A stretch of DNA of 64,000 bases from Loxodes magnus (taxonomy: Eukaryota > Ciliophora > Karyorelictea > Loxodida > Loxodidae), in NCBI GenBank assembly GCA_946699065.1, contig CAMPDV010000509.1, positions 62,001 through 126,000 on the forward strand. The letters are read 5' to 3'. Under the pieces are notes generated by a model. That model was given only the letters and a program-made list of their open reading frames with translations. It was not told where the DNA came from and did not search any database. Positions 1 through 46,349 of this stretch are shown here, in pieces (position 1 is the first letter of the stretch; each line of letters opens with the position of its first letter). The translations under genes and the position numbers were made by a program.

Positions 1-410
1 TTATAAGTTCGAGTTAAATAATTTAATCTAGCTTAGACTAGAACCAAAATCAGTTTAAGCCAAAGAAAATAAAATCAATTAAATTTAAAAAGACAAAAGT
101 ATTCACTAGATGAAAGCTAAAGCATATTTTATAAGTTTTACATTAGGAATGCTATTTGTTTATTGTCAAATACTTAAATATTTAAAGTAAGAAGGAGAAA
201 TTAATACTAGATCATTGCAAGTAAAGTAAGGCCAAAATGACAAACAGTAAAAAAAATGGTAGTAAAAAACTAAAAGTGACAAAAATATGCAGAAGTAAGA
301 ATCTTAATGGATCAGCTTGGAAGGAAAAATTCATAAGTTATTACCAAAATAAATGAAATTGATATGGAAGAAGTAGCAATAGAACTTTTCCTGTATTAAT
401 TGAGCGTTTA
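1..410 (+). pseudogene. C-terminal end of a family U gene, cut by window start
   Basis: This is the left-truncated end of the large unrecognised protein seen complete at about 11880-14910. With TAA/TAG as Gln it reads a conserved tail with the motifs EGEINT and ESQWISLEGK. The Trp of ESQWISLEGK is TGG here and TGA in the copies near 14796, 28450 and 42097, which supports TGA as Trp. The end is set by loss of charged, conserved sequence and not by a proven stop. No function is recognised. Confidence 0.45.
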
Positions 411-810
411 GTTATATAATCTTGATTCAAAATGAGTATTGCTTTAAATAACCTAACAAAGAAAACTAAATTTATCTGACAATGAAGCAATATTAATCTC
501 AGATAATTAGCAGTTTCTAATTTTATAGCATATATTTCCCTTGTAATCTAATTAAATTCTTATATCTTAAGTAAGTTTATAAACATCAGTTATATTCTAA
601 ACATAAACTATGCTCCTAATTTTTTATCGTTTCTATATGTTTGATTAAAGAAATATAGACAATTTACCTTCGAATTTACACAATTAAATAAAATAAAGTT
701 TCTTTATTAACTGGTTATTTGACTTCAATTATTATTAAATTTAAATTCTTCAATCATTAATTAAAAGTTTAACTTTCATTTAAATAGAACATTATTTTAA
801 ATTTATAAAA
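411..810 (+). promoter_or_regulatory. Upstream region of RBK1
   Basis: About 400 bases of very AT-rich DNA lie between the end of the U gene and the RBK1 start. The region is conserved upstream of all five RBK genes, especially the last 100 bases (a CTTTCATTTAAATAGAA block followed by TTTTAAATTTATAAAA just before ATG). I infer that it holds the promoter and 5' leader. No specific factor site is recognised. Confidence 0.4.
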
Positions 811-3099
811 ATGTAGGTAACTACATGCTCGATATGTGATGATGAGTTTAATGAGACTATTAAAAAACCTAGAGAAATGGAGTGCAAATGTATAGCTTGT
901 GAAAAATGTCTAAATACAATGTATAAAAAGACTAATATGATAATATGCTATTTACATAACTTCAAATCAACTAAAATAGTACAGGAACTTAAAAAGGTAG
1001 AAGTTAAAGTTTATAATTTGTGTTAAGAGCATTAACTTGAACTAAAATTTATATGTTCCAAAGATAATCAATTTATATGCAATACTTGCTTAACATCAAC
1101 ACACAATCATGAAATTTTACTTATATAAGAAAAAATTAGAGGATTACAGGAGGAAGTTAAGACAAAACTACAATTACTACAAGAAATTATTCAGTTATAA
1201 CATAAGAGAATGTCCTTTAATAATAATCAATAATCAATAAGCAAAGCAAAATTTATTACTAGAAATATTATTTTAGAAACAATTAAGAGATTTAAATTCT
1301 AAGTAATATCTATTATCTAAAATTACTTTAACAAAAACTTAAATTTATCAGGTAAATCATAATAAGAGCTTTCTTCTAACTTAATGAAAGTTCATAGTAT
1401 GTAGAAGTAAATGTAAAATATAGCCTAGCTTGAAGAAACAACTATAGATCAATGTGAGTTAAAGAAACAGAAGATAGATAATTTATAAGAACAGTTACAT
1501 AATTAGGAATGAAACTAGCAGGAATGGAATATTTAAGATTAGGAAAGTTAAAATATTTAAAATATTATTTTGTAAGAGTTATATGAAAGTGAGTTGTTCC
1601 AAGAATAAAGAGAAAAAATAGATATTTAAAAATATAAATTAGAAGATAGAATATCAAATCTAAATTAAAAATTAACTGATTATGCTTAATAGTTATAAAA
1701 TCTAAACGAAGAATAAAAAAATAATAAAGATAAGATAGTTTAATTAGAACAAGAAAATTTAAAATAAGTATTAAAAATTAAAGAACAACTTGAATAGATA
1801 AAAAACTTGTAGGAGACAAATTAAATCATGAGAACTTAAATAGATGAATTGAAATAATAAAATATCAAGCTTAATCAAATAGTTTAGACATAAATTTAAT
1901 AAATATAAGAACTAGAATAAGTTAAATAGACCTTGAATTAAAAGAGAAAGGAATAAGAAGAACTAATAAGAAATTTATAAGTGAATAATTAAACTCTCAA
2001 TGAAAATATAGAGTCATTATCTTAATAGAAAACAATTTAAGAGTAAGAAATAAGAGAAAAGTAGTAATAAATTCAAAATTTAACAGAAAAAGTAAAATTG
2101 CTTAGTTAACTTAACGAAGAGAAAGAATAAATAAAAATATAATTATCCTAATAAAAAGATTTAATAAAATGAAGTATTGTAAATTAAGAATTAAAATTAT
2201 ATAAAAGAAAAAATAATAATTCTTTAATAAATTTAACTAATTACTTAAGAATTTAATGCAGATCTAATATTATTTAATCAGTAAATATATCAGTATAACC
2301 TTAGACTTAAATTGAGTCAGCAATATCTAATTTTTAAGCCGTATCTGATAATTATACTTCTTGCTATTAAATTAGTAACAATTAGATAATTTTAGTAGGA
2401 GGATTTGATTAAAATAGATATTAAAGGAATGTTTTAAAAATAGAAAATAATTAAATAGTAAATCAATATAATTTAATATTTCCCAGAAAAAGAACTTCAT
2501 TATCATACGATAATTTAAATATCATTTATATTATTGGAGGATATGATACTTAAGATAAATTTATAAACGAATGTGAGATATATGATATCAAAAATAATAA
2601 ATGTACTGAAATAGCACAACACATATATAAAGGAGTACGACATGGAACTTGTTATGCATATGATATGATATTTACATTTGGAGGATATTTAAATATAAAT
2701 AACTCTAATCAAAAAAAAGATTACATATGCTTTTATGATATAATAATTAATAAATGATAATAATCAACAACTATTAAATTGCCAAAAGAAGCATATTGTA
2801 TATAAGCAATTTATGTTTAAGAAAAAGAATAAGTATTTATATATGATAATTGAAATTGCTTATAGTAAACATTATAATTTGATTGAAAAAATATAACAGA
2901 TAATGGATAAGAATTTCCTAAATAAGGTTTATCGTTTTGATTTAATGGAATTTATGATAAAAATAAAATATGAATGTACTCTTCATAATCAAGTGAGCAA
3001 GATATTTTATATTATTATGATATAAATTTACCAAGCAATAGAAAATGGGAAAAGTGTTAGTTATGAAACAGTAATATAAACATATTTAATCTTATTTGA
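811..3099 (+). CDS. RBK1: RING-like/B-box/coiled-coil/Kelch protein (TRIM-like), intact
   Basis: A single 763-codon frame reads through with TAA/TAG as Gln and TGA as Trp. Residues 6-49 hold a RING-like Cys/His cluster (C6, C9, C25, C27, C30, C33, C46, H49). Residues 71-100 match the B-box consensus exactly: C71, H74, C82, D85, C90, C93, H98, H100. A long Gln/Glu/Lys-rich coiled coil runs from about 200 to 500. Kelch repeats follow, with paired Gly at 530, 576 and 624 and Trp at 649, 692, 710, 721, 746 and 752. Most of those Trp are TGA. By family knowledge such proteins are often E3 ubiquitin ligases whose Kelch blades bind the substrate; that role is inferred. The start follows the conserved leader. 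The end is the TGA at 3097, which is TTA in three other copies, so the true stop is uncertain. Confidence 0.85.
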
Positions 3100-3269
3100 T
3101 TAATTTTACTAAATTACCTAATAATTTATACTTAATTTAATAACTTTTAATTACTTAAAATAGTGTATAAATCTTATTACTTTATAATTAAAATGGAAAT
3201 AATAAAAATAGGTTAATTGATTCTAATTATCATTAAAAAATAAAATTTAATAAATTTAAACTTTAAAAA

Positions 3270-4125
3270 ATGAACAACTTCTTTTGACTTAATAAAGAAG
3301 AAATTATTAAATAAAGTAAATAATAAAAAAAAGGATATCCAATCCTTTAAAGATAAATAGAAATGTCTTGAAGTACTAGATCTATGGAAGATAGAAGAAC
3401 ATAATAGCTTTGAAGAATTAGTATTATTTATGCAACTTAAAAGAGAGTACTTTTTTAATTAAAAATAATCTAAAGCTCTTAAAGATCTACTAAAAATTTG
3501 AAATAAAAATATGAATATGGAAAGAGATCTTCAACTTAATGATATATTAAAGAAAATTAAAGAATAAAACTTAATATCAATAATTAAAGTAACATATTAT
3601 TAAAAAAATAGGGATTTATATAGTAGAAGCAGAATAGTAAATTATAATTAAGCGAAAATTGAAGGAGTAGACAAATTACAATAAAAGAATCTATAAAACT
3701 GATTTGATTAAAAGAAAAGCAAATAAATTTAAGAATCTAAAAATTCATTGAAAGAAAAGCTATAACAGTAACTCAATATATCATTTAGATAATATTAGTA
3801 ATATTTTCTGGAAATGGAAGAAGGAAAAAGATTGAGAATTATGAAGAACTAAAGCGAGATTAATTACGTTAATAGATATTAGTATAGAAAAAGCTCGAAT
3901 CTTATTGTGCATCCTACTGAATGTTTAATAGAAAATCAATAAACATTTCTTGATTTTAATATTTTATTAATTTTTTTTAATTAATACTTATATTTAAAAA
4001 ATAGAATATTATGATTAGCCTACTCTGATATATCAAAAAAATTAGGGAGATCGAAAATAGAGATAATATAGAAATCACTTAAGTAAAAATTTTACGTTTG
4101 TCAACATTTCAATTAAATTATGCCT
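3270..4125 (+). pseudogene. G2 copy 1, unknown helical protein with HTH-like end
   Basis: This gene lies about 170 bases downstream of RBK1 on the same strand. All five copies begin with a Met-rich leader related to MKLGFWFNKEEI. The body is Lys/Glu/Leu-rich (LEVLDLW is conserved) and the C-terminus reads SDISKKLGRSKIEIIQKS, which resembles a Myb/SANT or other helix-turn-helix segment. The N-terminal leader and the body lie in different frames in this copy, so it is probably broken. The family is not recognised. Constant position after RBK suggests co-inheritance or a partner role, but nothing shows an operon. Confidence 0.4.
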
Positions 4126-4149
4126 CTCTTATTTCCTTTAATATTTAAT

Positions 4150-6733
4150 ATTTTTTAAAATTTCTGCAAGCTTGCTTATTAATTTATTTTTAATTAAGTA
4201 AAATTAAAATTCTTCTAGGTATAAAATTAATTTTCTATTATATCTATGTTTTTCTTTTTAATATCGGATTCAGGAATATTATAATATTTCTTTTTATATT
4301 ATTATTTTAATGAGACAGATTATGATTTTTATCTTTATTTTTTTGGAATGGCATGAAATCCTGATATTTTTAAAATATCCAATCTGTCATTATCACATCC
4401 AATCTTTGATATCGATCTTACTATATTAAACTTGTTTTTTGCTTAGATATTTATGTATTTATCTATAATATCTTATTTTGATGCTTATTATTTACCTTTC
4501 TCTATTTTAAATCTTAGATATTTTTTAAAATAATTAGGCACTTAATTATCTTTTATAAGTGTCGTTTCCGTAAGTTCACTTTATTAGCACTATTTATTTT
4601 TTTAGTGTTTATTTAATAACTTAAGATATACTACTCTTATAAAATATTCTTTACTATGTTATTAACTACATTTTTTCAATGATATTATTCTTCTCTTATT
4701 CATTATTTATACTATCAAAACTTAGACTACTTAATTCAGGTCATTTTTTTAAAGTTATTTTTCAAACTGAAATATTTACTCATTTGTTTATTTTAAGTAT
4801 TAGATTATTTTTAATGGACCTATTTTATTTAATTTTAAGTAAGTGATATGACTTTTAATATTTCTTATTCACGATATTAGTACTTATATTTAATTTTACT
4901 AATTATCTCTTTCTTATATAATTTTTTATAAATTTATTTTTAAAGTTTTTAATTTTAGTCTATAGTAACTTTTTTTAAGCTTTATACTTTAACTACTACA
5001 TAAAATCTTTCCTTTCCTACATTGCTGATATTCCTTCAATTAATGCCATTTTAAATATTTTTTATTTTATCTCCTATTTTAGTTTTTAAATATTAAGTAA
5101 GATTCTTAAAAATTTAGTATTTCTAATATTTTTTTACTTATAGATATAAGGTATAAATTTTAAGCGCTTTTTAATTAGCCTACTTACTTATGATATCGCA
5201 TCTACTATATATATATTTAATTTTATATTTTATTTAGCTATTTAATTAATTAATTTAGCAAGTATTTACTTCTAATAATCCTTATCCCTCCTATTTTTTT
5301 AAACATACCTCTTTTTATTTAATTACTTATATATTTTTTATTAAATTTTACTAATTATCTATTAAGATCTTTTACAGTTTTAACTTAGTTACTATTTAAT
5401 TATTTTATGTTATTGATTTTAATATTTTTATGTATTTTAGTGTCTTAACTATTATTACTTTTTTAAAGCTTTGTTATTGTTTCATTCTGATTAACTAATT
5501 AAATTTGACTTTCTTTGTATAAAAGCATTGTAATTAATTAAAAATGTTATTTTAATTTATTCTCTGTCTTTTCTTGATTGAGCTACTTGATCTTTAAAAT
5601 ATAATTATTTATTTCTCATCTTTTTATCTAAACACTCACATTCTCTTATATAACTTTACTTGTACTTATTTTAAATACGTTCTCTTTAATTTTGCCTTAA
5701 TAAATATATTTAATTTATTTTATAGTAGCATTATTCTTTTTATTAAGTCAAATTTATTTATATATTAAGATTAATTAATATTGTAAAATTATAAAATAGC
5801 ATATTAATGATGCTTAACTATATTACCTATTTATTATTTAATACTTTTGACAAATTTTATTTATAATTTCTTTACTTTAATGTCTCTCTCTTTCTCATAT
5901 CCTCTCATTTTTAATCATTTCTTCTTCATCCTCAACAAGTTATCCCTTTATAATCATAGTTATATATCACATTATTTTTGATTATCTTAATTACTACCTC
6001 ACATCAACTATTATGATATTTTAATAGATACTGCTATTTCGAAAGGATGCTTTAGCTTTATGTGGATATTAATGATATTCTTTGCGATTTTCTTTTAATT
6101 ATGTAGGATATTTAATTTAGATTATTGGTATTGTCCCATATGTACATTTTTTCATCCTCATCTACCAGTATACTTTCTAACTGACATGCAAGTATAAGTA
6201 ATAGAATTTAAAATACATGTTATTCATTTAAAGAGATATCGTATGAAGATATTAAGATATTTAACTTATTAACTAGTAATCATTAATTTAATTTTGTTGT
6301 TAAGTATCTTCATCTATTACAAAGAGACTATCTCATTAAGTATATATCGCATTATATGCTATTAAGTTTTTGTAATAAACTAATTATTTTGTATTTTAAC
6401 TTTTATGCATTTACTTCACTGTGATTAAGATAATTATTGTATTGATTCTTTTAGGTCTTTGAATTTTAATTTAATTTTGGATTCTTTTCTCCTATTTTAA
6501 ATATTAAATTAGCATTGTCATATCTCAATCGTGCTATTGCTCTTTATTATAAAATCAGTTTAAATATAAATAATATTATTGTTGGTGTTTATTTATCAGA
6601 TTTTATTTAAATAAGGTCTTTACTTTTTATCTTCTACTTGTATTAGAAGATTATCATTAATCTAATAAATTGCTGCTCTTTTGGCTTTTTTAAATATTAT
6701 ACTATAGTAGTAACCATCTCTCTCAAAATACAT
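4150..6733 (-). CDS. Unknown minus-strand gene, copy 1 (possibly broken)
   Basis: About 2.6 kb reads on the minus strand from Met at 6733. The N-terminus contains FERDGYYYS followed by DNLLIQVEDKKQRPYL. A middle acidic motif VDEDEKMYIWDN maps near 6133-6175. Downstream is a Lys/Gln-rich, probably coiled-coil stretch containing ECECLDKKMRNKQ. A diverged copy lies at 59400-61867 with the same motifs. Good protein composition moves between frames along the gene, so one or more indels are likely. The N-terminal segment faintly resembles a BAH-like chromatin domain, but I do not claim this. Its first codons share a sequence block with gene GX (see findings). Confidence 0.4.
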
Positions 6734-6737
6734 GTAT

Positions 6738-6885
6738 AGTGTTTCTAATTAATGATAAACTTAATTAAATGAATTATGATAATATGAAATATAGATAAAC
6801 TATAATAATGGTATAAAAGATAAGGTTAATAATAGTGTATAAGGATAGTGACTAGTTTTAATATAAGGATAATAAGAATTAGGTA
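6738..6885. other. Intergenic leader between divergent genes
   Basis: Short AT-rich region containing the presumed 5' leader of the minus-strand gene. It resembles the sequence upstream of gene GX (for example 22896-23000), including a shared TTTTAATATAAGGATAAT-like block. Confidence 0.3.
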
Positions 6886-6889
6886 ATGT

Positions 6890-7165
6890 TTATAATAAAT
6901 AACTAGTTATTACTTATATATTAGATACTATATTTCTATTATCTTTAATTCTCTTAGTTAATTCTAAACCTAATTCATATTATTACTCTTATTTTTACTA
7001 TTAACTTAACTTATTTCAACTTTAACTCTCATATTGTTCTTGTACTCATATTTTCATCTTTCTATCTGCTTTTTATCAACCAGTCATATCCTTTGCTTCA
7101 GTCATAAATCTTAAACTTTCCTTTAATGCTTATTTTATTACTTTTATAAGTGCTATTTTAAGTCT
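6890..7165 (-). repeat. Arm repeat, U1-A
   Basis: This is a copy of the roughly 300 bp arm repeat at the left end of every U block. Its minus strand reads well as protein (ALIKVIKQALKE and ELGLELTKRIKDN), so the arm may be a coding exon and not a passive repeat. Confidence 0.6.
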
Positions 7166-7289
7166 TAAGTAATCTATCTATCTATTATCAGATCCTTGTT
7201 ATATGTAATCCTATATACCTTAGTCTATCTTACTACCTTTAATATCTTAGAAGTAACATTAACTAACATATAACTTTAAGTATTCTTAT

Positions 7290-9650
7290 TCAAACTTCTA
7301 TATAGTAATACCATTAAAAGATTAAATACCTTAGAAGATAGAACAGTGAAGGAGCTAAGCTAGGATTAAGAAATCTTAAGCTTTTAGAAGTAGCAAGTTA
7401 TAACTTAGTGGCTCGATTAGACCGTAGATAGATGGGAGTAGATACTAATAGCATATAAGAAACTGAGTTAGATGGCAATAAAACTTAGTTGAGACTATCT
7501 GGAATAAAGTGCTGTCTAGTACAAAAATTGGTTAGCTGAACTAATCATGTAAACGTATTCAATAATTTTAGTTACAAGCTTGTAAGGTTTACATTAGTAA
7601 CGCTTGACGCCTGATAAAATAATTAAGTAAATAAATTTGGACCTATGAAAAGTGAAGATAAAGCTAATTAGAATGCTAGAATCAATCGAGAGATGAAATT
7701 AAAAGAGAGTAAACTAGGATTTAAAGAGTAAAAGTAAGCTAAAGTTGAGAAGCTGAGGGTGGAAAATGAGATATCGTGACTTATCGGTTACAAACTATAT
7801 CAGTAAGCTGAATCTTAAAATTGGAAACTCTACAACTGACTTTTACTAATTTATACAGCTATTTCTTTACCTTTTCTAAAAACATATTGTATTCTCTATC
7901 TTGCTGAGGCTTTTCTAATGAAGAAGATTAGAATCAAATTGAAGCAAAACCAAACCAAATAATTATATCAACATTAATAAAGCAAAATCAGAAAATGAGC
8001 TCAAGCATATAGCTGAAGAAGATTTATATAAAGTTATAAATTATCAAGAAATAGTCTTTCAAAGCTAATTTTTCTAACAACTTTATTATCTTTAGGTTTA
8101 AACTTTATTTAATACTAAGAATTTAAAAGAAGCATCAATTATCAAAGCATTTTAAACTTAAAGTTGCTCTTTCATATAAATACAATAATTAAATTAAATT
8201 TATTCAATATAGATCTACAGCAATTCAATAGACTCTCAACCAAATCGTTATTCGATCTCTTAACAAAGAGAATTAGATAGAACAATAAATATTTTTATTA
8301 AAAACTAACTACAGAAGACCGATCCAAATAATAGTCTTAAAGAGAGATAGATACATAAGATTTATTCTACCATTTTAAAATCAGTTAGCTTAGAAATAAA
8401 TTTTCGCTTTCCACATCTAAATATGCGTATAATGTAGAATGTAGCTAAATGGTCAGCTTAATTCCCAATTTTATCTTTAGAAGAGAATAAAAAAAGATAA
8501 AGTTTCAAGTTTTTCTCACTCTGGCAAAAAATCCACTATGAAAAATGAAATAAAAAGCTGGAATCTTTAGATGATTCAGAGCTAAAAGTACAAGAACAGG
8601 AGATGGACTAGGTAAAAAAGTAGGTCTGGAAACATTTAGATCTTAATAGGATTTAGAAAGGATTAGCATCTCATTCATTAACATAAAATTGAGAAATAAA
8701 AAAATAGCAGATAATACAAAGATTTTAGTCTATTAATAAAAGTAAAGAAATGAAGGCAATTACAATTATAATCAAGATTATAATTTTACTTTGCAAACAA
8801 AATCTTCAATAAATTATTCTTCTCATATACAAAGGAACTTAAATAGATCTAGTAGTATAAATAACATAAACGAATAAGGATATATCTAGCATCTCAAGCT
8901 ATAATAATCATAACTTAATATTAGTCAAGACTAAAACGAAATTAAGCATTGATAATAAGACAGTTTTGATATTAAGTATTAATAAATGAATATACAATAT
9001 TAAGAAAATACAACTGGCCTAATTATTTCCACTGATAAAGGTAGAGCTTGAAAACAAATGTAGGATTGAAATAGAAAATAGATTAGCTGAAGGATAAGTT
9101 AAGAATGAAATCTTGTCTTAATGAAAATGTAACTTCTGAAGTTTCTACTATGTGGCAAAGACTTTCGAGAAAATGGGAAATCGTGACTGAAGACATTTAA
9201 AAAAAAGAAAAAAAGAAGGTAAAAGTTAGAGGTAGAATTAAATAGTATTGGCTATATAAATGAGTTTAAGAAAAAGGAGAAAAGAGATTCTTTTAGTAGA
9301 AAGACTTAAAAACAAGATTCTAAGTTAGAAATTAGTGAAACTAACTGTAGACGATCAATAATATTTCGGAAAGTTAGATGAAGCTTCACATATAAATAGC
9401 TTTCGAATTAATCATCTTTTCTCTTAGTTTTATACCCAAATCTTCAAGAATCACTATTTCTATATTTAGATTTATTATTAATCTAGTGCTTATCATACTT
9501 TTGAGATAGGAACTAGCTAGAAGTGATTTTCTATCTTTATTTCTAAAATTTAGATTTAAGTTAAAACTAGAAAGTATCATGATGCTCGCTTCTAGAAGTT
9601 ATGCTTAAAGATTATGTTAAATATGCTTAAAAGATATATATTGATTTATA
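7290..9650 (+). pseudogene. Family U gene, U1-A copy, large unknown protein
   Basis: A roughly 2.3 kb plus-strand gene of an unrecognised family. Conserved with the diverged copies at 23500 and 50220 are NLVARLDRRQMGVD (near 7402-7443), ETELD, then SWTNHVNVFNN (near 7535-7570). A second segment has SWGWKMRYRDLS (near 7753), where one Trp is TGA and the other TGG. Later motifs are KLYLILR and KTDPNNSLKER. The protein looks soluble and helical with no membrane segment. The best frame changes near 7.75 kb, so this copy is probably broken. The 3' end differs from U2 copies and lacks the ESQWISLEGK tail. Confidence 0.5.
9386..9580 (-). other. Conserved small minus-strand frame in the U1 3' end
   Basis: A 64-codon frame, open even under the standard code, starts MILSSFNLNLNFRNK and contains IEIVILEDLGIKLREK. 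The copy at about 48890-49085 keeps the same reading (IEIVILKDKGIKLRER) with several synonymous changes. It overlaps the plus-strand U1 reading, so only one is likely real, and I cannot decide which. Confidence 0.3.
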
Positions 9651-9689
9651 GTTTTTAAAGATATAAAGAGCTAAGACATTCTCCACCAT

Positions 9690-9786
9690 CTCTCTCAAAA
9701 ACATCCACATTCCTATTTTCTAGTTCTTCTACTTTTGACTTATAAATTCTAAATATAAAGTGGAAGATGTTTTTCTTCTATTACAT
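9690..9786 (-). pseudogene. 5' fragment of gene GX
   Basis: Only the first 30-odd codons of gene GX remain (Met at 9786, then KSKVEELENTNVDVFERDGG). The sequence leaves GX homology at about 9675 and joins the end of block U1-A. The intact counterparts start at 22896 and about 36550. Confidence 0.5.
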
Positions 9787-9906
9787 GAATATATAGGAAT
9801 AAGAATGGTATACTTAAATGAAATAGTAGATATTAAAGGTTATTATAATAAAGAGATGGTTTTGATATAAGGATTATATAATAACTATTAGCTTTTCTTT
9901 ATAAGT

Positions 9907-10180
9907 AATAACTAGTTGCTACTTATATATTAGATACTATATTTCTAGTTGTTATCTTTAATTCTCTTAGCTAGTTCTAAAGCTAATTAATATTATTACT
10001 CTAATATTTTAATTAACTAAACTGCTTTAAACTGAAACTTTAACTGTCATATTGTTGTAGTTGTATTTAAATCTTAGTTTTAATCTATTTTAAATCAACT
10101 AGTTATCTATCTGCTATAGTTATAAATCTAATATCTTTCTTTAAATGCTTATTTAATTACTTTTATAAGTGCTATTTTAA
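9907..10180 (+). repeat. Fold-back core R1, left arm
   Basis: Left arm of an inverted repeat paired with 10537-10802. The arms match over about 270 bp at roughly 80 percent by eye. The arm is homologous to the arm repeat at the left of each U block. Confidence 0.7.
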
Positions 10181-10536
10181 ACCTTTTAGCTTAGTAATCT
10201 ATCTATCAATTATCAGATCCTACCTATAAGCTAGTCATAGATAACATTATCATAATCGATCATACTTCTTTATTATTCCCCATCCTATCTTTAATATCTT
10301 AAAGCCATATTAGCCAATATAAAGTCTTTTAATAAAAACTTAGTCTTAAGATATAATAATACCATAAAAAGGTTTACCAGTATAGAAGATAGAATGGTGA
10401 ATCAGCTAATGTAGGATAATAAAAATCTAAACTTTGTAGAAGTACCAAATTATAATATAAGCTAGTGACTACATTGGATGCTAGATAGAAGGGAGTTGAT
10501 AAAAATAACTAGGAATAGCTATTTATTCGAAAGAAC
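10181..10536 (+). pseudogene. Loop of R1: truncated N-terminal part of family U
   Basis: The loop between the arms reads plus-strand family U sequence, with an RRQNGES then KLVTRLDA-like motif. Compared with R2 it lacks about 330 bases. The junction follows ACTAGGA, matching a short GGA microhomology in R2. Confidence 0.45.
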
Positions 10537-10802
10537 TAAAAAGACACTTATAAATCTAATAAATTAAGAATTTAAGGATAGATATAAGATTTATAAATAT
10601 AGCAAATCATATAGCTCGTTGATTTAAAATAGATTCAAATTAAGATTTAAATACGACTACAACAATATGACAGTTAAACATCAAGTTTAAATCAATTAAG
10701 TTAATAGTAAAAATATAGTAATATATTAATTAGCTTTAGAATTAGCTAAGATAATTAAAGATAATAACTAGAAATATAATATCTAATATATAAGTAACTA
10801 CT
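10537..10802 (-). repeat. Fold-back core R1, right arm
   Basis: Inverted partner of 9907-10180. On the plus strand it reads LINLINQEFKDRYKIYKYS and LALELAKIIKDN, homologous to the minus-strand reading of the left arms. Confidence 0.7.
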
Positions 10803-10926
10803 ATTATTGTTAATTGAGAAATGTTAATAGTTATAATTCTTATATTAAAGCTAGTCTCTTTATTATCTTAAGTTTTATTTTCTATTTCTTTAACTTACTA
10901 TTATGATTAAGTTTTATAACAACTTT

Positions 10927-11509
10927 CTCTTATAAGAGGAACAGAACTAAAGACTTTAGCTAAGTTGTTTAGTAGTATTAAACTTTAAATTGTTTTAAGA
11001 TTGTTAAATATTTTAATATAATTACAATAAACAAGCAAACATATTAAATAAAGGGCTATTTTACATCTACATAATTTCATATAAAATATCTTATTCAATA
11101 ACTAAAAAGAATTTAACTTTATAAAAGAGATTTCCTTTTATTTTATTAATCAATTACCTTATTAAAGTTTTAGTTTAAGTTGATCTAATAGTTTTCTTTC
11201 TCTTGATTAATGCACTTTTATAATTATTGAATATCTCTTATAAAGTACTATCATTATATTATACTTCTACTCTACTTTTAATAGAACTTTATTAAATATT
11301 AAATCTTAAATCTTAATATAAAGACTTTAAAGCTTTAGCTTGTTTGAACAATTAGAATTTCCGCTGAATCTATAAGATTATTTTACTAGATATGTCCAGT
11401 AAATTGAGCCTTCTCTTATACTCAAATATAAATTGAGTGCCTTATATGATTTAAATTGTATATTACTAAACAACTTAATTAAGGTTTAACTTTAGTTCCT
11501 CTTATAATA
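10927..11509. mobile_element. MITE-like element, copy 1 (583 bp)
   Basis: The ends are inverted: CTCTTATAAGAGGAAC at the left against GTTCCTCTTATAATAG at the right. The inverted similarity extends 60-70 bp inward through an AAGTTGTTTAGTA block. The interior is AT-rich with no protein motif. Copies sit at the same position in units II and III, so it inserted before those duplications. No flanking target duplication is clear. Confidence 0.65.
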
Positions 11510-11534
11510 GTAAATTTAAGAAATAAGGATAGAG

Positions 11535-11790
11535 ATATCTTTAATTATCTTAGCTAATTCTAAGCTAATTAATATTATTACTCTTATATTTAAATTAACT
11601 AAACTGTTTTAAACTTAATCTTTAATTGTAATGATGTTGAAGTCATGTTTAAATCTTAGTTTGAATCTATTTTAATCAAAGAGTTATATAATCTGCTATA
11701 GTTATAAATCTTATACTTATCTTTAAATGCTTACTTTATTAATTTATATAAGTGTTATTTTAGTTTTTTAATCTAAAATAGTTATTTCTC
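11535..11790 (-). repeat. Arm repeat, U2-1
   Basis: Copy of the arm repeat in left-arm orientation immediately before gene U2-1, starting near ATCTTTAATTATCTTAGC. Confidence 0.6.
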
Positions 11791-11879
11791 TATTAGTTAT
11801 TAGATTATATTTATAGCTAGTTATATACTAGTAATAGAAAACGCTATCTTTCTTACTCTATCATATTTCTTGATTATAT

Positions 11880-14800
11880 TTCTATGATATCTTAAAAGAG
11901 AAATTAATTAATATTAAGTTTTTAATCAAGTTTCGTAATCAAAACTAGTCTGCAGATATAATAATAGGACTAAAAGAGTAACCAATATAGATAATAGAAA
12001 GGTGAAAGAGTTAAATTAGGATTAAAAAATCTAAACTTACAGAAGTAGCAAGTTATAATATAATTTTGTGACCAGTTGAGTTAAAGGTAGATGCGAGCAT
12101 AAAGCAATAACTAGAAAATGTATCTGATAATATAGAAATTGAAACTAGATTGTGATTTAATTTAGTTGAAGAGTATTGTAGATTAAAATGCTGTTTTGGT
12201 TTAAGATTTGGCTAGATAAGCTTATTATATCTACATATAGATTTAAGTTTCAAGTTTGCAAGATTAAGTTAATTAACGTTGGGATTGATAAAAAAATTAA
12301 AATAGCTAACCCTGGAGAGTTAGAATAGAATTATATGAAAGGTATAGATAAAGCTAAAAGAATATAAGGATCTGCTGAGAGATAAAATTAAAAAAGTATA
12401 AGCTAGTGATTATAGAATAGAAGTGAAATTAATTCTGAAAAGCTGAGGGTGAAAATGAGCTCTTAGGACTTATCGTTTGCTTATCATATTGTAGACTACA
12501 TCCTTAAAATTGGAGACTCTACAGCAGACTTTTAATCTTTCATATAATTATTTCTTATTTGCTCTAGAAACTTGTTGAAACTAATATTGAACTGAGGTAT
12601 TTTCAAAGAAGAAGATTAGGATTCAATGGGATAAATCCATACAAAGTTCTCAATGTCAATAATACTAAAACAAAAAAAAGAAAAGAAAAGCAGTACAAGT
12701 GGAAAGCTGAAGAACATTTAAAGCAAATCTCTAAATTATTAAGAAGTAATCTTTCAAATATATATTACTAACTCCATTATTTCTAGTCTTAAGTTTTTTT
12801 AATACTAAGAAAGTTAAAAAAGCATTAGCTATCAAAGTACTCTTATGTTGTCTCATAATAAAACCTTCAATAATTATTTTATAGATCACTTACAGATAAT
12901 AGAATTAGATACTTGTCTTAAGAAAGACAGATATGTAAGAATTATCCTAGCACTTTAAAAACAGTTAGCTTAGGAATAAAGATTATTTGCTTACTAATGT
13001 GATTGGATATACTAATAGTGTGGAATGTATTTAAAAGGATAGGCAATTTAAAGAAATTTATATTTAAAGGGAGAGAAAAATAAAATTTTGCTGTATAGTT
13101 GCTTTACTTCTAACGATATGCACACATAGATAAAATGAAATAAAAAGCTTGAATTGCCCAGATGACTTAATCTAAATTACAAGACTAGGAAATAGACTTA
13201 GAAAATGGGCGGCCCTGGAAAAATTTAGATCTTTAAAGGATTTAGAAAAAATAGCACCTCATATAATAACAAAAACTTGAGAAACCAAAAGAAAAGCTGG
13301 TAAGGTAAGGATCTTAGACTATTGATAAAGTTTAAGAAAGTAAGGCAATTACAAATATAATAAATAGTACTATTCACTTTCTAATAAAAATTTCAAAAAA
13401 CTATATCTCGTAAATAAAAAACCTTAAAGAACTCTTATTAGTAATAAAAATTAGAAAGGAATAAGGAAGTATCTACAAAGACAAACAAAGGAAGTAAAAC
13501 TTTAATATCAGTAAAGCTTAAAAAGGATTTTTAAGATATATAATAGGAAAGTTTTAATGCAAAGATTCAATAAAAGAATATATAGTATTGAGAAGAAATA
13601 GTAGACCTTATTATTTCCATAGGTAAATATAGAATTTTGATTGTAGATATAGGATTAAAATAGAGAATAGATAAAATCCAGGATAAATTAAGAATTAATC
13701 TTGGTTACTCTAAAATAATTGCTTGAAATTTCATATATGTAGCAAAGACTTACTGGAGGATCTGAAATTGGGAATGGGGATAGTTTAATTGAAAAGAAAA
13801 AAGGCAAAATTGGATGAGAGAAGTAAAGGGTACTGGCTAGATATAAATGAGTTTAAGAAGAAACGAGAAAATGAAAAACTTTAAATCCTGAAAATGAGTT
13901 ATTTAGATGAAACATCTTTCAACGGAAAGATTAAAAGTATAAATTATAGAGATAATAATTAGAGAAATAAACAATAAAAATTACTGTTATTTCTTTAGAT
14001 TTGATGAAGAAACTTAAAATTACATTTGACAAATAAGTTGCAGGATAAAGCAATAGTTCAATAGAAAAAACGAAAATAAAAGAGATAATAAAAAGGGATA
14101 TTTGGTATAGCAGATTTTGATTATCGTTAGTCTAGTAAATTATTTAATTTGTATTACTAGATGAGAAAAGTTACATAAAATTAGAGAAAATACTTAAATA
14201 GAATTTTTAAACTTGAAGATTATTAGAGAGAATTTAAAAAAATTTGGATAAAGTTAAGGTGAAGAGCTTGTTTTAATCTTCTCTTTACATAATTTAATCA
14301 AAGAAATTAATAAAAAGATACTGAGCCTACTACAAAACTGCGAACATAAGAATGGTATTTCAAACCTAAAGAAAACTTTCAGATAAGTATATAGCAAGTT
14401 TAATATAAGAAAAGCTTAATCATAAAGTATAAAGCACAATATTTCAAGAAAATTTAACTGAAATGAACGAAAAATATTCAATTCTAAGACAATTTTATAA
14501 GTTCAAGTTAGTTTATTTAATCTAGATTAGGCTAGAACCAAAATCAGCTAAACCAAAAAAATAAAGTGAATAAAATTAAAAATACAAAAATATTCAATAG
14601 ATAAAGCTAAACCAGATTTTAGAAGTTTTTCATTAGAAATTCTATTCTTTTAATAGTCAAATACTTAAATCTAAAAGTATGAAGGAGAAATTAATACTTG
14701 GTCTATGCAGGCAAAGCAAGGTTAAAATTACTAGCTGTTTAAAATAAATGGCAGTAAAAAACTAAAAGTGGCAAAAAGGAAGTAGAAGTAAGAATCTTAA

Positions 14801-14910
14801 TGAATCAGCTTGGAAGGAAAATTTTGTAAGATTTCAGCAAAATAAATGAAATTTATATGGAAGAGGTAACAATGGAGCATTTTCCTGTATTAATTGAGTG
14901 TTTGTTTACC
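11880..14910 (+). CDS. Family U gene, U2-1 copy, about 1000-residue unknown protein
   Basis: A large plus-strand gene preceding RBK2. Motifs shared with U1, U2 and U3 copies include a SWGWK-type motif with two TGA Trp codons (near 12430), LKIGDSTADF and HICSKDLLEDLKLG (near 13740). Further on are YWLDINEFKKKRENEK, FNGKIKS, and the tail EGEINTWSMQ and ESQWISLEGK (near 14790). The product looks soluble, Lys/Gln-rich and largely helical. I recognise no known domain. Exact start and stop are undetermined because no codon is an unconditional stop. Parts read in different frames, so an intact frame is not proven. Confidence 0.5.
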
Positions 14911-15308
14911 TAATTTATATCTAAAATTAGTATTGCTTTAAATAACTTACCAAAAAGACTAAATTTATCTGATATTGAAGCAAGATTAATCTCAGATAAA
15001 TATCAGTTTCTAATTTTGTAACATATATTTCCCTTGTAATATAATTAAACTCTTAAATCTTAATTAGTTTTTAAAGATCAGTTATATTCTAAACATAAGT
15101 TATTCTCCTCATTTTTTATCTTTTCTATCTGTTCTCTTTAAGAAATCTAGTTAATTTACCTTCTAATTTATATAATTAAATAAAATAAAGTTTCTTTACT
15201 AACTGCTTATTTGATATTCAATTATTATTACATTTAAAGTCTTCAATCATTAATTAAAAGCTTGATTTAACTTTCATTTAAATAGAATATTATTTTAAAT
15301 TTATAAAA
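14911..15308 (+). promoter_or_regulatory. Upstream region of RBK2
   Basis: About 400 AT-rich bases conserved with the other RBK leaders, including the CTTTCATTTAAATAGAA block before the start. No coding signal is seen. Confidence 0.4.
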
Positions 15309-17619
15309 ATGTAGGCAACTACATGTTCGATATGTGATGATGAGTTTAATGAGACTAGTAAGAAACCTAGAGAAATGGAGTGTAAATGTATAGCTTGTGA
15401 AAAATGTCTAAATACAATGTATAAAAAGACTAATATGATATTTTGTGTTCTTCATAACTTCAGGTCGACTAAATTAGTGCAGGAACTTAAAACAGTAGAA
15501 ATTAAAGCTTAAAATTAGTGTTAAGAACATTAACTTGAATTAAAATATATATGTCCCAAAGATAATTAACTTATATGTAGTACTTGCTTATTATCAACTC
15601 ACAATCACGAAGTTTTACTTATATAGGAAAAAATTAAGGGTTTATAGGAGGAAATTAATACAAAACTTAAATTATTACAAGAAAATATACAGTTATAACA
15701 TAAGAGAATGTCCTTTAATAAAGATCAATAATCAATAAGCTAATAAAAATTTGTTACTAGAAATATGATTTTAAAAGCAAATGACCAATTACTTTCCTAA
15801 ATTTTTTCTAATATTTAAAATTTATTTAACAAAAATTTTAGTTTATTCGATGAATAAGAATAAAAGGTATAATCCAATTTGTAGAAAGTTCATAGTATTT
15901 AAAAGCAAATAAAGATATAGCCTAGCTTGAAGAAACAACTATAGATCAGTGTGAGTTAAAGAAACTGAAGATATATAATTTATAAAAGCAATTACTTAAC
16001 TAGGAATAAAACTAGCAGGATTGGAACATTTAAGATTAAGAAAGCTAAAGTACTTATAAAACATTGTTTTATAAGATTTATATGAAAGTGAGTTGTTCTA
16101 AGAATAAAGAGAAAAAAGAGATATTTAAAAATATAACTTAGAAGATAGAATATCAAATCTTAATTAAAAACTAACTGATTATGCTTAATAGTTATAAAAT
16201 CTAAACGAAGAACAAAAAAATAATAAAAATAAGATAATTTAACTAGAGAAAGAAAATTAAAAATAAATTATATAGATTTAAGAACAACTTGAATAGATAA
16301 AAAACTTGTAGGAGAGAAATTAAATCGTGAGAACTTAAATAGATGAATTGAAATAATAAAATACTAAGCTTAATCAAACAGTTTAGACATAAATTTAATA
16401 AACATAAGAATTAGAATAAATTAAATAGACCTTGAATTAAAAGAGCAAGGAATAGAAAAGCCAAATAAGAAATTTATAAGTGAATAATTAAACTCTAAAT
16501 GAAAATATAGAGTCATTAACTTAATAGAAAACAATTTAAGAGTAAGAAATAAGAGAAAAGTAGTAATAAATTTAAAATTTAACAGAAAAAGTACAATTAC
16601 TAAGTTAATTAAATGAAGAGAAAGAATAAATAAAAATATAATTATCCCAATAAAAAGATTTAATAAGATGAATTATTATAAATTAAGAGTTAAAACTAGA
16701 TAAGAGTTTTGAAATAATAACTATTAGAAACAATAATAAATCTTCTATACAGTTAACTAATTATTTAAGAATAAAACAAGGATCTAATATCATTCAATCA
16801 GCAAATATATCAGTATAACCTTAAACTTAGACTTAGTCAGCAGTATCTAATTTGTAAAATTTATATTAAAATAATACTTCATGCTATTAAGCTAGTAATA
16901 ATTAGATAATTTTAGTAGGAGGATCAGATTAAAATAGATATTAAAAGAATGTTTTAAAAATAGAAAATAATTAAATAGTAAATCAATATAATTTAATATT
17001 TCCCAGAAAAAGAACTTCATTATCATACGATAATTTAAATATCATTTATATTATTGGGGGACGTGATGCTTAAGATAAATATATGAACGAATGTGAGATA
17101 TATGATATAAAAAATAATAAAGTTAGTTAAATATCACAACATTTATATAAAGGAGAACGACATGGAACTTTTTATGCATATGATATGATATTTACATTTG
17201 GAGGATATTATAATATAAATAACTCATATCAAAAAGAAGATTACATATGCTTTTATGATATAATAATTAATAAATGATAATAATCAGCAACAATTAAATT
17301 ACCAAAAGAAGCAGAATGAGTATCAACAATTTATATATAAGAAAAAGAATAAGTATTTATATATGATAATGAAAATTATTTAAAATAAACATTATCATTT
17401 GACTGAAAAAATATAATAGATAATGGTGAATCATTTCCTTAAATTGGTTGATCGTTTTGATATAATGGAATTTATGCTAAAAATAAAATATGAATGTACT
17501 CTTCATAATCTAATAAGCAAGATATTTTATATTATTATGATATAAATGTAGCAAGCAATAGAAAATGGGAAAAGTGTTAGTTATGAAACAGTAATATAAA
17601 CATATTTAATCTTATTTGA
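15309..17619 (+). pseudogene. RBK2, frameshifted copy
   Basis: Full-length copy of the RBK gene, near-identical to RBK3. The RING-like cluster and B-box (C-x2-H, C-x2-D, C-x2-C, H-x-H) are intact. The distance from ATG to the aligned terminal TGA is 2311 bases, not a multiple of three. Against RBK3 it lacks one base near 15915 (AAATAAAGATATAG versus AGATAAATGATATAG) and gains two near 16060. The Kelch part is therefore out of frame with the N-terminus unless recoded. The TGA Trp codons of the Kelch repeats are retained. Confidence 0.75.
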
Positions 17620-18864: not shown

Positions 18865-20780
18865 TTTAACTCCTTGATTTAAGTTATTAGGATCTTAGTC
18901 TCCTATCTCAGTTGTAATAGTTCCTTTTAATAGTACATACTCAAGGCTATTCCGTCTTTCCCTTAGAAGTAGTATAGTTACTTTTGTAATATAGACATTT
19001 AGACAGGAATAATATTTATATATCATGATATGCAATTCAAACGTAGAAAAGGAAGTAAAACTATAAGTAACTGAAGAAAAACAATGAGATAAGATAAAAT
19101 ATATTAACATTAATGTCTCATAACTAACATTTTTCCCACTTCCTACTGCTTGCTGCATTTATATCATAGTAATATAACATCCGCTGTTGATAAAAAGATG
19201 GCATGTACATTCATACTTTATTTTTATTATAAATCCCATTATATCAAAACGATGAACCAATATTAGGAAATGCTTCTCCGTTATCTGTTATAGTTTTTCA
19301 ATCAAACAACAATGCTTACTAAAAGCAATTGTTATTATCCCATATAAGCACTTATTCCTTTTCTTATATATAAATGACTGATACAGATGAGGCTTATTTT
19401 TGTAATTTTATCGTAGTGGATTGTTGCCATTTATTAGTTGTTATATCATAAAAGCATATATAATCTCTGCTTTAATTAGAGTTGATTATATTGTAATCTC
19501 CTCCGAGTGTAAATATCATATCATATGCATAACTAATTCCATGTAGTACTCCTTTATATATATGTTGTGCTATTAAAAGGCATTTATTATTATTGATATC
19601 ATATACCTCAAATTCGTTCAAGTAATTGCCTTAAGCATCTAATCCTCCTATAATATAGATGGCATTTAAATTATCAAATGATAATGAAGCTTTCTTTCTG
19701 GGGAATAGTAAATTTGAATGTTTTACTATTTTATCGCTTTCTATCTTTAAAACATTCTACATGTTCGTGCTTTAATCTTACACTCCTATTAAAATTATCT
19801 AACTGTTACTAGTCTAATAACAGGAAGTATAATTTTAATATAAAATTGACTAATTGAATACTACTGACTAAACATATGTTTAAGATGATATGCTTTTTGA
19901 CTATATAATATTTGATGCTTGCTTTATTCTTAAATATTTAGTTCACTGTATGGAAGACTTGTTGTTGTTTCTATAAGCTATTATATCAAAACTCTTTCCT
20001 TATTTTAATTCTTAACTTCATTGTAATTATCTTAGTAAATATTTTTATTGTATCAGTTGCATTTTTATTTATTCTCTCTCTTCGTTTTGCTAACTTAGTA
20101 ATTGAACTTTCTCTGTTAAATTTTAAATTTATTATGTCTTTTCTCTTATTTCTTAGTCTAAAGCTATTTTCTATTATGTAAGCTATTCTATGTTCTCATT
20201 AAGGGTTTAATTATTCAAATTTCTATTCCCTATCAGCTCTTCTAGTTACTTGTTCTTTTAACTTAAGGTCTTGCTAACTTATTCTAGTTCTTCTTTTATT
20301 ATGTTTTTGTCTTAATCATTTAGTTTAGCTCTGAATTTTATTAAGTCAGTTCATCTTTTTACTTCCTCATGCTTTAATTTTCCTCCTACAAGTTTTTTAT
20401 CTACTCACTCTGTTCTTAAATATTTAAGCTTTATTTCTAATTGTCTTCTTCTAGTTATACTATCTTATCTCTACTACTTCTTTACTCTTAATTTAGACTT
20501 TACAACTACTAAGCATAATCAGTTAACATTGAATTCAGTTTCGATATTCTATCTTCTTATTAACTCCTTTAAATATCCATTTTTCCCTTTATTCTCAGAA
20601 CAACTTGCTTTCATATAGTTCTTACAAGACATTTTTATACACATTTTAGCTCTCTTAACTCTATATATTCCATTCCTACTATTTTTGGTCCTATTTATGC
20701 AACTGTTCTCATAACCTATCTATCTTCTATCTCTTTAACTCACACTGATCTATAGTTGTTTCTGCAATTTATTGCAAGCA
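18865..20780 (-). pseudogene. Inverted, N-truncated RBK copy 1
   Basis: The minus strand reads the RBK coiled coil and the complete Kelch region. It lacks the RING-like cluster and B-box: homology fades upstream of the ETTIDQCE-like segment near 20765. It is diverged from the direct copies but keeps the Kelch hallmarks (YIIGG, FTLGG, NKWQQ, FDWK, FWYNGIY, KVWMY, RKWEKC). NKWQQ is written with TGG CAA CAA at 19431-19439, where RBK1 has TGA TAA TAA. This is the clearest code evidence in the window. The frame is good across the Kelch part. With no clear start or zinc domains it is called a pseudogene. Confidence 0.7.
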
Positions 20781-20954
20781 TTATTTAAGTTTCCCTCTTT
20801 AATTTGATTTTAAATAAGATCCTAAGTTATCTACTCTTATTTAGTTTAATTCTCTTTCTTATACAATTAGCAAATATCTAAACTTCTATTATGATAGTCT
20901 TATTTATTATAGCTTAAAAAAGATGACTTAAAAAAGCAAAAATCTTAAAATAAA
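20781..20954. other. Junction between inverted RBK and ORF1-like element
   Basis: AT-rich sequence of unclear origin linking the truncated 5' end of the inverted RBK copy to the ORF1-like element. Minus-strand coiled-coil-like reading may continue here but is not conserved. Confidence 0.3.
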
Positions 20955-21704
20955 ATGAGCAATCAACAATAAGATAAACTCATTGAAATTTACTCTTTGA
21001 TAGCTGATATTAAAAAGCTTTAAGATTCAGTTTAAGACTTAACCTAAAGGGTTAGTTCATTAGCTAGTACTATCACTCAGCTTTATAACGAAAACATTTG
21101 GCTAAAAATGGAAATCTCTCTCAAACCTTCAATGCTCTTCTTAGCAAAGAAATGAAAAAATTCAAGCAAATTGAAAAATTGAATCATAACAATCAACTAA
21201 TTTCGAATCCTTAATATGATCCTATGGAAGTAGAAAATGAAATTAAACCAATTCCCACGAAGAAAATTAAAATAATATAACGCTACTGAAAATACTAAAA
21301 GATAGAGTACATTTCAAGAAACTGTACAATTAAATGCTTTTATTGCTAAAAAATCTGACATATCTTCATAGATTGTTATTACTTCAAGAGAAAATAATAA
21401 TAAGAAAACTGAAATACTTGGATCAAATAACATAAACTATACTGCTCCAAAGAAGGTTAACTTTACAAGAAAGAGTTATACAGCAGTGATTAATTATTGC
21501 AGGATATTATAAATGCTTAAAATAGGAGAGCGAGGTAAATTTTAGGTAATAATTGAGATTGAAGCAAAATACCAATCATTAAGAAGGATTATTTCTGTGA
21601 AAATCGGTATGCAATAGAAGAGCAAGATTCTGGAGAATTCTTGAATTTTTGAATCAATTTATAAACATACTCGTGATAAACCTAACGAGGATGATTCACG
21701 TTAA
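20955..21704 (+). mobile_element. ORF1/Gag-like element with (ATT)n tail, copy 1 (broken)
   Basis: A roughly 250-codon gene starts MSNQQQDKLIEIYSLI. Its N-terminus is a strong coiled coil (DIKKLQDSVQDLTQRV), followed by a Lys-rich stretch with DPMEVENE, a motif it shares with the element at 45498-46325. The C-terminal third is basic (APKKVNFTRKSY, then IGERGKF). It ends just before a run of ATT repeats at 21708-21726, like the simple-repeat tails of some non-LTR elements. It is broken in about two places and identical in its duplicate at 34610. No reverse transcriptase lies beside it. It may equally be an orphan host gene. Confidence 0.5.
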
Positions 21705-21730
21705 TACATTATTATTATTATTATTTATAA
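21705..21730. repeat. (ATT)n short tandem repeat tail
   Basis: A short run of ATT units directly after the last codon of the ORF1-like frame, interpreted as the 3' tail of the element. Confidence 0.6.
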
Positions 21731-21739
21731 CAGATTTTT

Positions 21740-22896
21740 TACTTATTTAGTAGATAAAATTGATTATTAAGATCCTAGGATTAATTAAATTTAATTAAGG
21801 TCTATAAATTAAATTATCCTTTTATTAGTTAAAAATTATCTTTCATAATCAAATGTTTCATTAGCTTTCCTCAATTTTCTATTATATATAGTTATACTAA
21901 TTGTTTACTTAGACTAGATGGTTTATTTATCATAAATATCCAATTAATAGTAATTATTATTTAACTTTTATAATTAAATAATTTCTTTATTATTCTATCA
22001 TTTTATTAAATTCTTATTTCTATGCATTAAGATGTTATTCTTTTTGAACCTAGTCAGTATTTTAAATAAAAGCACTCCTATTACTATCCTATTATACTTC
22101 TAATTGCTACTTTAATGGTAAGTATTATCTAAACTACTTTAGATATCTTAATTATTAATAGATTTATACTTAGCTATTAATATAGCTCTTATATAGTTAA
22201 CTAATACTATTTTATTTCCTATCTTAATTATTTTGATAAGTCATTCTTATTTAACTCTATTCCATTAAATACTTAGATTTACTAGATATTTCTTTTAACT
22301 TTATATTTTCATATCTTCTCTAAATCCTTAGTATCTGATAAATCTTATCTATTTAACTGTATCTTATTTAGTTACTTTTTATATAGTGAAATAGGTATAG
22401 AGTGTAGTTACATATCTGACTTATAATATTTAACTGCTTAGTATAAGTAGAATTATTATGTTAGATTTCCTTATTATAGTAACTTTTCTATCTATTAACA
22501 GTTATCTTAAACTCTAATTTTTCCCTTATACCTTTGCTAAGTAAATCCCATCCAATTGTAAAACATTCTCCTACTTAATAAATTTGGTTTCTGGATGTGA
22601 TGTTTACTCTCATTATATACAGAGACTTAATAATATTACTTGTAGTATAGAGTTAAATGCTACTAGTAAATCTAACTAGGGTTTTTACTTCTATTCCTCT
22701 TATTAGCCTTAGATTAATATCTACTGTATCAAGAGATCTTTCAGTAACTTAGTTATACTTGTTAAACTTCAACTACAGAGCTAAGATTCTCTCCACCATC
22801 TCTCTCAAAAACATCCACATTCGTATTTTCTAGTTCTTCTACTTTTGACTTATAAATTCTAAATATAAAGTGGAAGATGTTTTTCTTCTATTACAT
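21740..22896 (-). CDS. Gene GX copy 1, unknown minus-strand protein
   Basis: Reads from Met at 22896 (MQQKKNIFHFIF) into KSKVEELENTNVDVFERDGG. Then follow a mixed region with ERSLDTVDINLRLIRGIEVK and GECFTIGWDLLSKGIREK, and a long Gln/Lys coiled coil with KYLMEQSQIRMTYQ and YINSQVQIYQQLRYLKQF. The later part is one consistent frame from about 22760 down to 21960. A shift after ENLSSVVEV separates it from the N-terminus, so the gene may be broken there. The family is not recognised. A partial inverted copy of its first part lies at 24440-24575. Confidence 0.5.
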
Positions 22897-23006
22897 GAAT
22901 ATATAGGAATAAGAATGGTATACTTAAATGAAATAGTAGATATTAAAGGTTATTATAATAAAGAGATGGTTTTGATATAAGGATTATATAATAACTATTA
23001 GCTTTT

Positions 23007-23292
23007 CTTTATAAGTAATAACTAGTTGCTACTTATATATTAGATACTATATTTCTAGTTGTTATCTTTAATTCTCTTAGCTAGTTCTAAAGCTAATTAA
23101 TATTATTACTCTAATATTTTAATTAACTAAACTGCTTTAAACTGAAACTTTAACTGTCATATTGTTGTAGTTGTATTTAAATCTTAGTTTTAATCTATTT
23201 TAAATCAACTAGTTATCTATCTGCTATAGTTATAAATCTAATATCTTTCTTTAAATGCTTATTTAATTACTTTTATAAGTGCTATTTTAAAC
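23007..23292 (+). repeat. Fold-back core R2, left arm
   Basis: Left arm of the largest fold-back core, paired with 23977-24238. It is essentially identical to the left arms at 9907 and 36668. Confidence 0.7.
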
Positions 23293-23976
23293 CTTTTAGC
23301 TTAGTAATCTATCTATCAATTATCAGATCCTACCTATAAGCTAGTCATAGATAACATTATCATAATCGATCATACTTCTTTATTATTCCCCATCCTATCT
23401 TTAATATCTTAAAGCCATATTAGCCAATATAAAGTCTTTTAATAAAAACTTAGTCTTAAGATATAATAATACCATAAAAAGGTTTACCAGTATAGAAGAT
23501 AGAATGGTGAATCAGCTAATGTAGGATAATAAAAATCTAAACTTTGTAGAAGTACCAAATTATAATATAAGCTAGTGACTAGATTGGATGCTAAATAGAA
23601 GGGAGTTGATAAAAATAACTAGGAAAGTTGCTTGATTAGATAAGAATCTGTAGCTCAACTTAGTCAAGGGATATCGAGGGTTAAAGAGCTATTCCAGTTT
23701 GAGATTTGACCGAGAAAACTAACCTTGTCGAAGTGCTCAACAAATTTAGTTTCTGTCTAGCAAGGTGTACACGAATAATGCTGACAATAGCTAACAAAAT
23801 TAAGCAGCTAAACTTGGAGATTTATATTAGGATTATATGAAAGGAAAGATAAAGCCAAATAGACTGTCAGGATCAATTGATAGATAAAATTAAAAGAAAG
23901 CAAGCAAAGTTTAAAGGGTAAGATGAAGTTAAAGAGATGATTGAGTGAGGAATAGCTATTTTAAACGAAAGAACTA
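23293..23976 (+). pseudogene. Loop of R2: N-terminal part of family U
   Basis: The plus strand reads RRQNGESANVG, YKLVTRLDAKQKGVDKNN and a SQGISRVKELFQFEI-type segment. These align with NLVARLDRRQMGVD in U1 and with QRQNGEIAKEDR in U3. A helical segment KIKQLNLEIYIRIIWKERQ then leads into the right arm. It looks like a family U gene whose C-terminal part was replaced by the arm. Confidence 0.45.
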
Positions 23977-24238
23977 AAAAGACACTTATAAATCTAATAA
24001 ATTAAGTATTTAAGGATAGACATAAGATTTATAACTATAGCAAATCATATAACTCGTTGATTTAAAATAGATTCAAACTAAGATTAAATACGACTACAAC
24101 AATATGACAGTTAAGTTTCAGTTTAAATCAATTAAGTTAATTTAAATATTATAGTAACGATATTAATTAGCTTTAGAATTAACTAAGATTATTAAAGATA
24201 ATAACTAGAAATATAATATCTAATATATAAGTAACTAC
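23977..24238 (-). repeat. Fold-back core R2, right arm
   Basis: Inverted partner of 23007-23292, about 80 percent identical by eye over 260-280 bases. The plus-strand reading continues as helical protein (KTLINLINQVFKDRHKIY). Confidence 0.7.
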
Positions 24239-25170: not shown

Positions 25171-25194
25171 TAAATTTAAGAAATAAGGATAGAG

Positions 25195-25425
25195 ATATCT
25201 TTAATTATCTTAGCTAATTCTAAGCTAATTAATATTAATACTCTTATATTTAAATTAACTAAACTGTTTTAAACTTAATCTTTAATTGTAATGATGTTGA
25301 AGTCATGTTTAAATCTTAGTTTGAATCTATTTTAATCAAAGAGTTATATAATCTGCTATAGTTATAAATCTTATAATTATCTTTAAATGCTTACTTTATT
25401 AATTTATATAAGTGTTATTTTAGTT
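25195..25425 (-). repeat. Arm repeat, U2-2
   Basis: Arm repeat copy before gene U2-2, near-identical to that at 11535. Confidence 0.6.
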
Positions 25426-46325: not shown

Positions 46326-46349
46326 TTTATATATAATATAATAAATAAC

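Follow-up and report, generated by a model that had tools for sequence, protein, structure and literature searches.

Genetic codes in which UGA can be read as a sense codon within genes are known from the Karyorelictea, Condylostoma and Plagiopyla. For some ciliates, decoding of UGA by a tRNA-Trp with a 4-bp anticodon stem is reported (PMC13092985). The Tetrahymena-type code (table 6) has UGA solely as a stop, and goes with a very AT-rich genome. The gene family described here, which we call RBK, shares with Tetrahymena the richness in A and T and, probably, the reading of UAR as glutamine, but differs from it in that the reading frame is kept past TGA codons that the gene copies have in common. 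The passages of PMC4967479 on Condylostoma magnum (table 28) describe UGA as translated as tryptophan, with a UGA usage of 0.042%, and in that species, as here, any of the three stop codons can have a sense meaning. In C. magnum, UAA and UAG also terminate. The karyorelict code of Loxodes and Parduczia (table 27) is like that of RBK in having UAR as sense and UGA as sense inside the gene, with UGA as a probable stop at its end. For Loxodes, the relevant text of PMC11441545 gives table 27, in which UGA means stop or tryptophan, and states that in Loxodes magnus the roughly 20 codons ahead of the stop are depleted of UGA and UAA, not of UAG. In RBK (D1 to D5 and I2, as defined below) the last TGA lies 31 codons, the last TAA 22-66 codons and a TAG two codons before the terminal TGA, a weak match to the depletion described in that text, and one drawn from a single gene family. 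The same source gives 33.5% G+C for L. magnus coding sequences, as against about 21% in the coding DNA of D1. RBK also carries four to seven internal TGAs per about 750 codons, a figure for one gene rather than for a genome. The UGA usage that the corresponding part of PMC4967479 gives for Parduczia, 0.120%, is well below this.

The window, that is, the whole 64,000-nucleotide stretch that was analysed, has a G+C content of 19-27% across its length (2-kb steps) and consists mostly of five units in tandem, which begin near 796, 15294, 28950, 42591 and 55148, with a unit length in the array (796-64000) of about 12.6-14.5 kb. Units 2 and 3 are almost identical over much of their length, and the other units are mosaic-like with differing inserts. 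Each unit opens with a direct RBK gene on the forward strand (D1, 811-3066; D2, 15309-17586; D3, 28965-31241; D4, 42606-44883; D5, 55163-57445). Two further copies, shortened at the 5' end, are inverted on the minus strand: I2 in unit 2 (19118-20765, spanning coiled coil to Kelch, with an approximate 5' limit) and I3 in unit 3 (32773-34420, limits approximate), which is near-identical to I2. The domain order is RING-like, B-box, coiled coil and Kelch; the B-box and Kelch repeats were found in D1 by Pfam under table 27, while the RING-like N-terminus is our own reading of the sequence. Searches of solved structures returned Kelch similarity and nothing further, and a structure model of the Kelch part (mean pLDDT 39.5) was set aside. 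Besides D1, no family reached its curated cut-off in six-frame Pfam scans of 1-15000, 20500-26700 and 44900-47400, the single other match in these three stretches being Shugoshin_N, under its curated cut-off. Strong signal in a codon-bias scan was confined to the RBK copies; that scan was trained on RBK itself, and so favours RBK-like sequence. ARAGORN, run with the bacterial code, found no tRNA in the window, and nothing in it matched Rfam at E 0.1. The Tetrahymena chromosome-breakage motif gave one two-mismatch site where 0.28 was expected, which is not above chance. No relative turned up among the viral or genome contigs searched, and our literature search found no paper on a tandem ciliate RING/B-box/Kelch gene family.

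Three direct copies are open from ATG to terminal TGA when UGA is read as sense: D1 through seven internal TGAs to its last codon at 3064-3066, and D3 and D5 under table 27, with only indels of 18, 9 and 3 bases in D5. An in-frame insertion of 18 bases near the B-box of D5, at approximately 55458-55475, introduces a TGA at 55463. Frameshifts are present in two of the five direct copies, D2 (two indels, of 1 and 2 bases) and D4 (three 1-base indels), and in both inverted copies, I2 having two frameshifts of 1 base each in its coiled coil. Decay is therefore real, and with several copies decaying some of their TGAs carry no evidential weight.

That TAA and TAG are sense codons is beyond reasonable doubt, with 53-72 in-frame TAA in each of D1 to D5 and I2, in a frame that the copies conserve. 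An earlier note on this DNA had claimed sense meaning for all three stop codons; for TGA inside the gene this is well supported, not by the single-column TGA/TGG pair alone but by conservation of the frame downstream of shared TGAs. TGA probably has a stop meaning as well, since TGA 3064 looks like the end of the gene. The note's reading of TGA TAA TAA at 2755-2763, in the Kelch NKWQQ motif, is exactly what the sequence contains. Four of the five direct copies share this spelling, although all had been said to do so, and D4 (near 44572) reads TGA CAA TAA. The inverted copies do carry TGG CAA CAA, at 19421-19429 in I2 and 33076-33084 in I3 on the minus strand, and not at 19431-19439 as first placed. 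Column 2755 thus holds TGA in each direct copy and TGG in both inverted ones. The eight TGAs listed for D1 all share the frame of the ATG at 811, and a ninth in-frame TGA lies at 3097, beyond the probable stop. Only four of the eight, rather than five or six, occupy tryptophan-compatible columns: 2755, 2884, 2938 and 2971. The last three, at 2884-2886 in FD-W-KNI, 2938-2940 in SF-W-(F/Y)N and 2971-2973 in K(I/V)-W-MY, are common to all seven copies (in I2, minus strand, at 19298-19300, 19244-19246 and 19211-19213). Other TGAs, in some of the copies, sit at glutamine, glutamate, leucine and other columns. At column 1510, D1 has TGA, the remaining direct copies TAA and both inverted copies CAA. 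Column 2170 is TGA in D1 to D4 and TAA in D5, I2 and I3. At column 2851, D1 has TGA and D2, D3 and D5 have GAA, with a gap in D4 and AAC in I2 and I3. Further TGAs in one or few copies (29640, 29754, 30219, 30222, 30333, 30408, 30972 and 31104, D3 numbering) coincide with a TGG column in none of the eight cases.

The best-surviving alternative is that TGA is an ordinary stop in a Tetrahymena-type code with UAR as glutamine, that the copies of RBK are dead repeats, their tryptophan TGG codons having decayed to TGA, and that the 2755 pair reflects decay on the direct branch. Decay of this kind had been named in the earlier note as a way in which its claim could fail, and signs of it are partly present, in the frameshifts of D2, D4, I2 and I3 and in the lineage-limited TGAs at columns other than tryptophan. 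The near-neutral change of the direct copies outside the N-terminus, and the lack of clear coding signal beyond the RBK copies in those parts of the window that were scanned, also favour this explanation. What speaks against it is age: three of the TGAs are older than the split between direct and inverted copies and another is common to the direct copies, but the frame has been maintained since. Direct and inverted sequences are about 20% apart around 2884, 2938 and 2971, and this difference around 2884 makes recent gene conversion there unlikely.

Maintenance of the frame was measured against flanking DNA, where frame-breaking indels occur at about 0.092 per substitution (95 per 1037, four comparisons), and where base-run density is similar to that in the open reading frame. 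For the strictest indel test we used D1, D3 and D5, picked as intact after inspection, which differ by 248-265 substitutions per pair (11-12%). Their indels across the reading frame, of 21, 18, 9 and 3 bases, are every one a multiple of three, as against 10 of 153 flanking indels (six overlapping comparisons). From the ATG to 3063 these copies have no frame-breaking indel where 35.4 would be expected, and none where 13.1 would be expected after 2170, 4.6 after 2755, 2.5 after 2884 and 0.9 after 2971, all expected numbers of breaks, here and below, being rough, since they use a star-tree approximation. Adding I2, the two 1-base breaks of which lie upstream in the coiled coil, again gives no breaks, with 27.4 expected after 2170, 9.6 after 2755, 5.2 after 2884, 3.3 after 2938 and 2.75 after 2971; the test after 2938 and 2971 is weak (P 0.02-0.4). 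I3 was omitted from these counts owing to its near-identity with I2; its frameshifts were read from the alignment. When D1 to D5 and I2 are all included, six breaks, of which D2 has one, D4 three and I2 two, are found from 29614 on (D3 numbering) as against 59.3 expected, and after 2170 D4 contributes three breaks as against 32.9 expected for the set. Flanking control windows of 300 columns each in units 1, 3 and 4 had frame-breaking indels in 13 of 13 cases.

With three TGAs common to all seven copies and the frame kept after them, the shared TGAs are not accounted for by the decay of dead genes. The absence of breaks after 2755 and 2884 in D1, D3, D5 and I2 and the low divergence up to 3064 tell in the same direction, and we consider the dead-repeat explanation distinctly unlikely. 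That TGA is a sense codon inside genes is well supported by the frame past the shared TGAs, in one gene family. UGA here is not confined to stops as a Tetrahymena-type code requires, a comparison made on one gene family with an approximate neutral yardstick.

Plain dN/dS with equal mutation rates suggested strong selection, with a direct-inverted ratio of 0.27-0.33 after 2755, but the deficit was much smaller under the observed AT-biased spectrum, and we relied on a nonsynonymous test with this empirical neutral spectrum. Between direct copies and I2, nonsynonymous changes after 2755 came to 0.79-0.85 of the neutral expectation (P 0.000-0.010; four comparisons, 400 simulations each). For the coiled coil this ratio was 0.84-0.90, for the linker 0.79-0.88 and for the Kelch part upstream of 2755 0.82-0.93; after 2884 it was a marginal 0.86-0.94 (P 0.045-0.21). 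Among the direct copies the same ratio was near neutral from the coiled coil through the linker, where it was lowest, to the Kelch part, at 0.83-1.09. The N-terminal RING-like and B-box part (811-1459 and counterparts) showed the clearest nonsynonymous deficit among direct copies (0.81-0.93, five pairs), despite high overall divergence. Given the frameshifts and the near-neutral change of direct copies outside the N-terminus, single-copy TGAs may be decay. Derived TGAs in D1, D3 and D5 number three, as against 8.1 under neutrality (P 0.035) and 0.7 if they were purged like frameshifts (P 0.032); this test used a majority start sequence with six TGAs, from which three TGA losses were seen and 3.3 expected. 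Derived TGAs are thus counterselected, though less than frameshifts, as a change to tryptophan would be.

The reading of TGA as tryptophan rests mainly on the one TGG/TGA column at 2755, together with profile scores for D3 and precedent. When eight residues were tried at TGA in the Kelch part of D3, tryptophan scored best in PF24681 (46.2 bits, as against 41.5-44.0 with the alternatives), Kelch_4, Kelch_6 and Beta-prop_ATRN-LZTR1, and other residues outscored it in Kelch_1 and Kelch_3. With ten residues tried in I2, which tests 2884, 2938 and 2971 only, tryptophan was best in none of the Kelch profiles (33.9 bits as against 36.0 for leucine in PF24681; 37.5 as against 38.6-40.9 for others in Kelch_6). 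It is very improbable that TGA is sense with another residue, such as cysteine as in Euplotes: the I2 scores at the three shared TGAs and the alternation of TGA with TAA in six columns would suit such a residue, but the sole exchange at a canonical Kelch tryptophan is TGG/TGA, tryptophan comes top in four Kelch-type profiles in D3, and UGA is tryptophan in C. magnum and tryptophan or stop in the table 27 of Loxodes (in the parts of PMC4967479 and PMC11441545 cited above).

For TAR, glutamine is suggested at most, by exchanges of TAA with CAA and by precedent. TAA exchanges with CAA in 17 columns, GAA in 10 and AAA in 17, and the D3 scores separate glutamine, glutamate and lysine poorly, with lysine, glutamate, serine and arginine above glutamine in Kelch_4, lysine about equal to glutamine in PF24681, and glutamine best in Kelch_6.

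The TGA at 3064-3066, which follows WEKCQL and is TGA in all seven copies, probably terminates RBK. Divergence between direct copies and I2 rises from 19-24% over 2884 to 3063 to 36-42% after 3064 (Fisher p 0.0003-0.03; D1, D3, D4 and D5 against I2), which points to 3064 as the end of the gene, though the homology of that flank is uncertain and it may be non-homologous. Between the direct copies themselves, five pairs excluding D2 show 2-4 differences in the 74-75 bases of the flank at 3067-3140 and its counterparts, a lower divergence than the 14-22 in 177 of the preceding coding part.

We consider it probable that the window comes from a ciliate-like eukaryote with a code like table 27, in which TAA and TAG are glutamine and TGA is tryptophan inside genes as well as stop. 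Under this code the RBK genes would have been translated through their internal TGAs during most of their history, with TGA 3064 and its counterparts as the probable stop, and D2, D4, I2 and I3 would later have become pseudogenes. Where TGAs are restricted to some of the copies, at glutamine, glutamate and other columns, they may be tolerated changes to tryptophan or decay. The meaning of TGA may be set by its nearness to the end of the transcript, as described for karyorelicts. A karyorelict or a relative of Condylostoma is a plausible source. It is conceivable, if rather unlikely, that the source belongs to a very AT-rich lineage of ciliates in which the meaning of UGA depends on context and tryptophan is written as UGA no less often than as UGG, far more UGA than the usage given for Condylostoma and Parduczia, and perhaps outside the lineages known for such a code; tryptophan-looking columns in the frame of D1 are TGA in four cases and TGG in two.

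The finding fits a kind of code already known in a few ciliates, and since that kind has been described its wider interest is moderate. The array offers a natural test, in which recent direct copies, older inverted copies and a flanking neutral yardstick help to separate TGAs that are sense codons from those that are decay. If this reading is right, gene prediction here would need UGA as both tryptophan and stop; otherwise genes would be cut at their first UGA.
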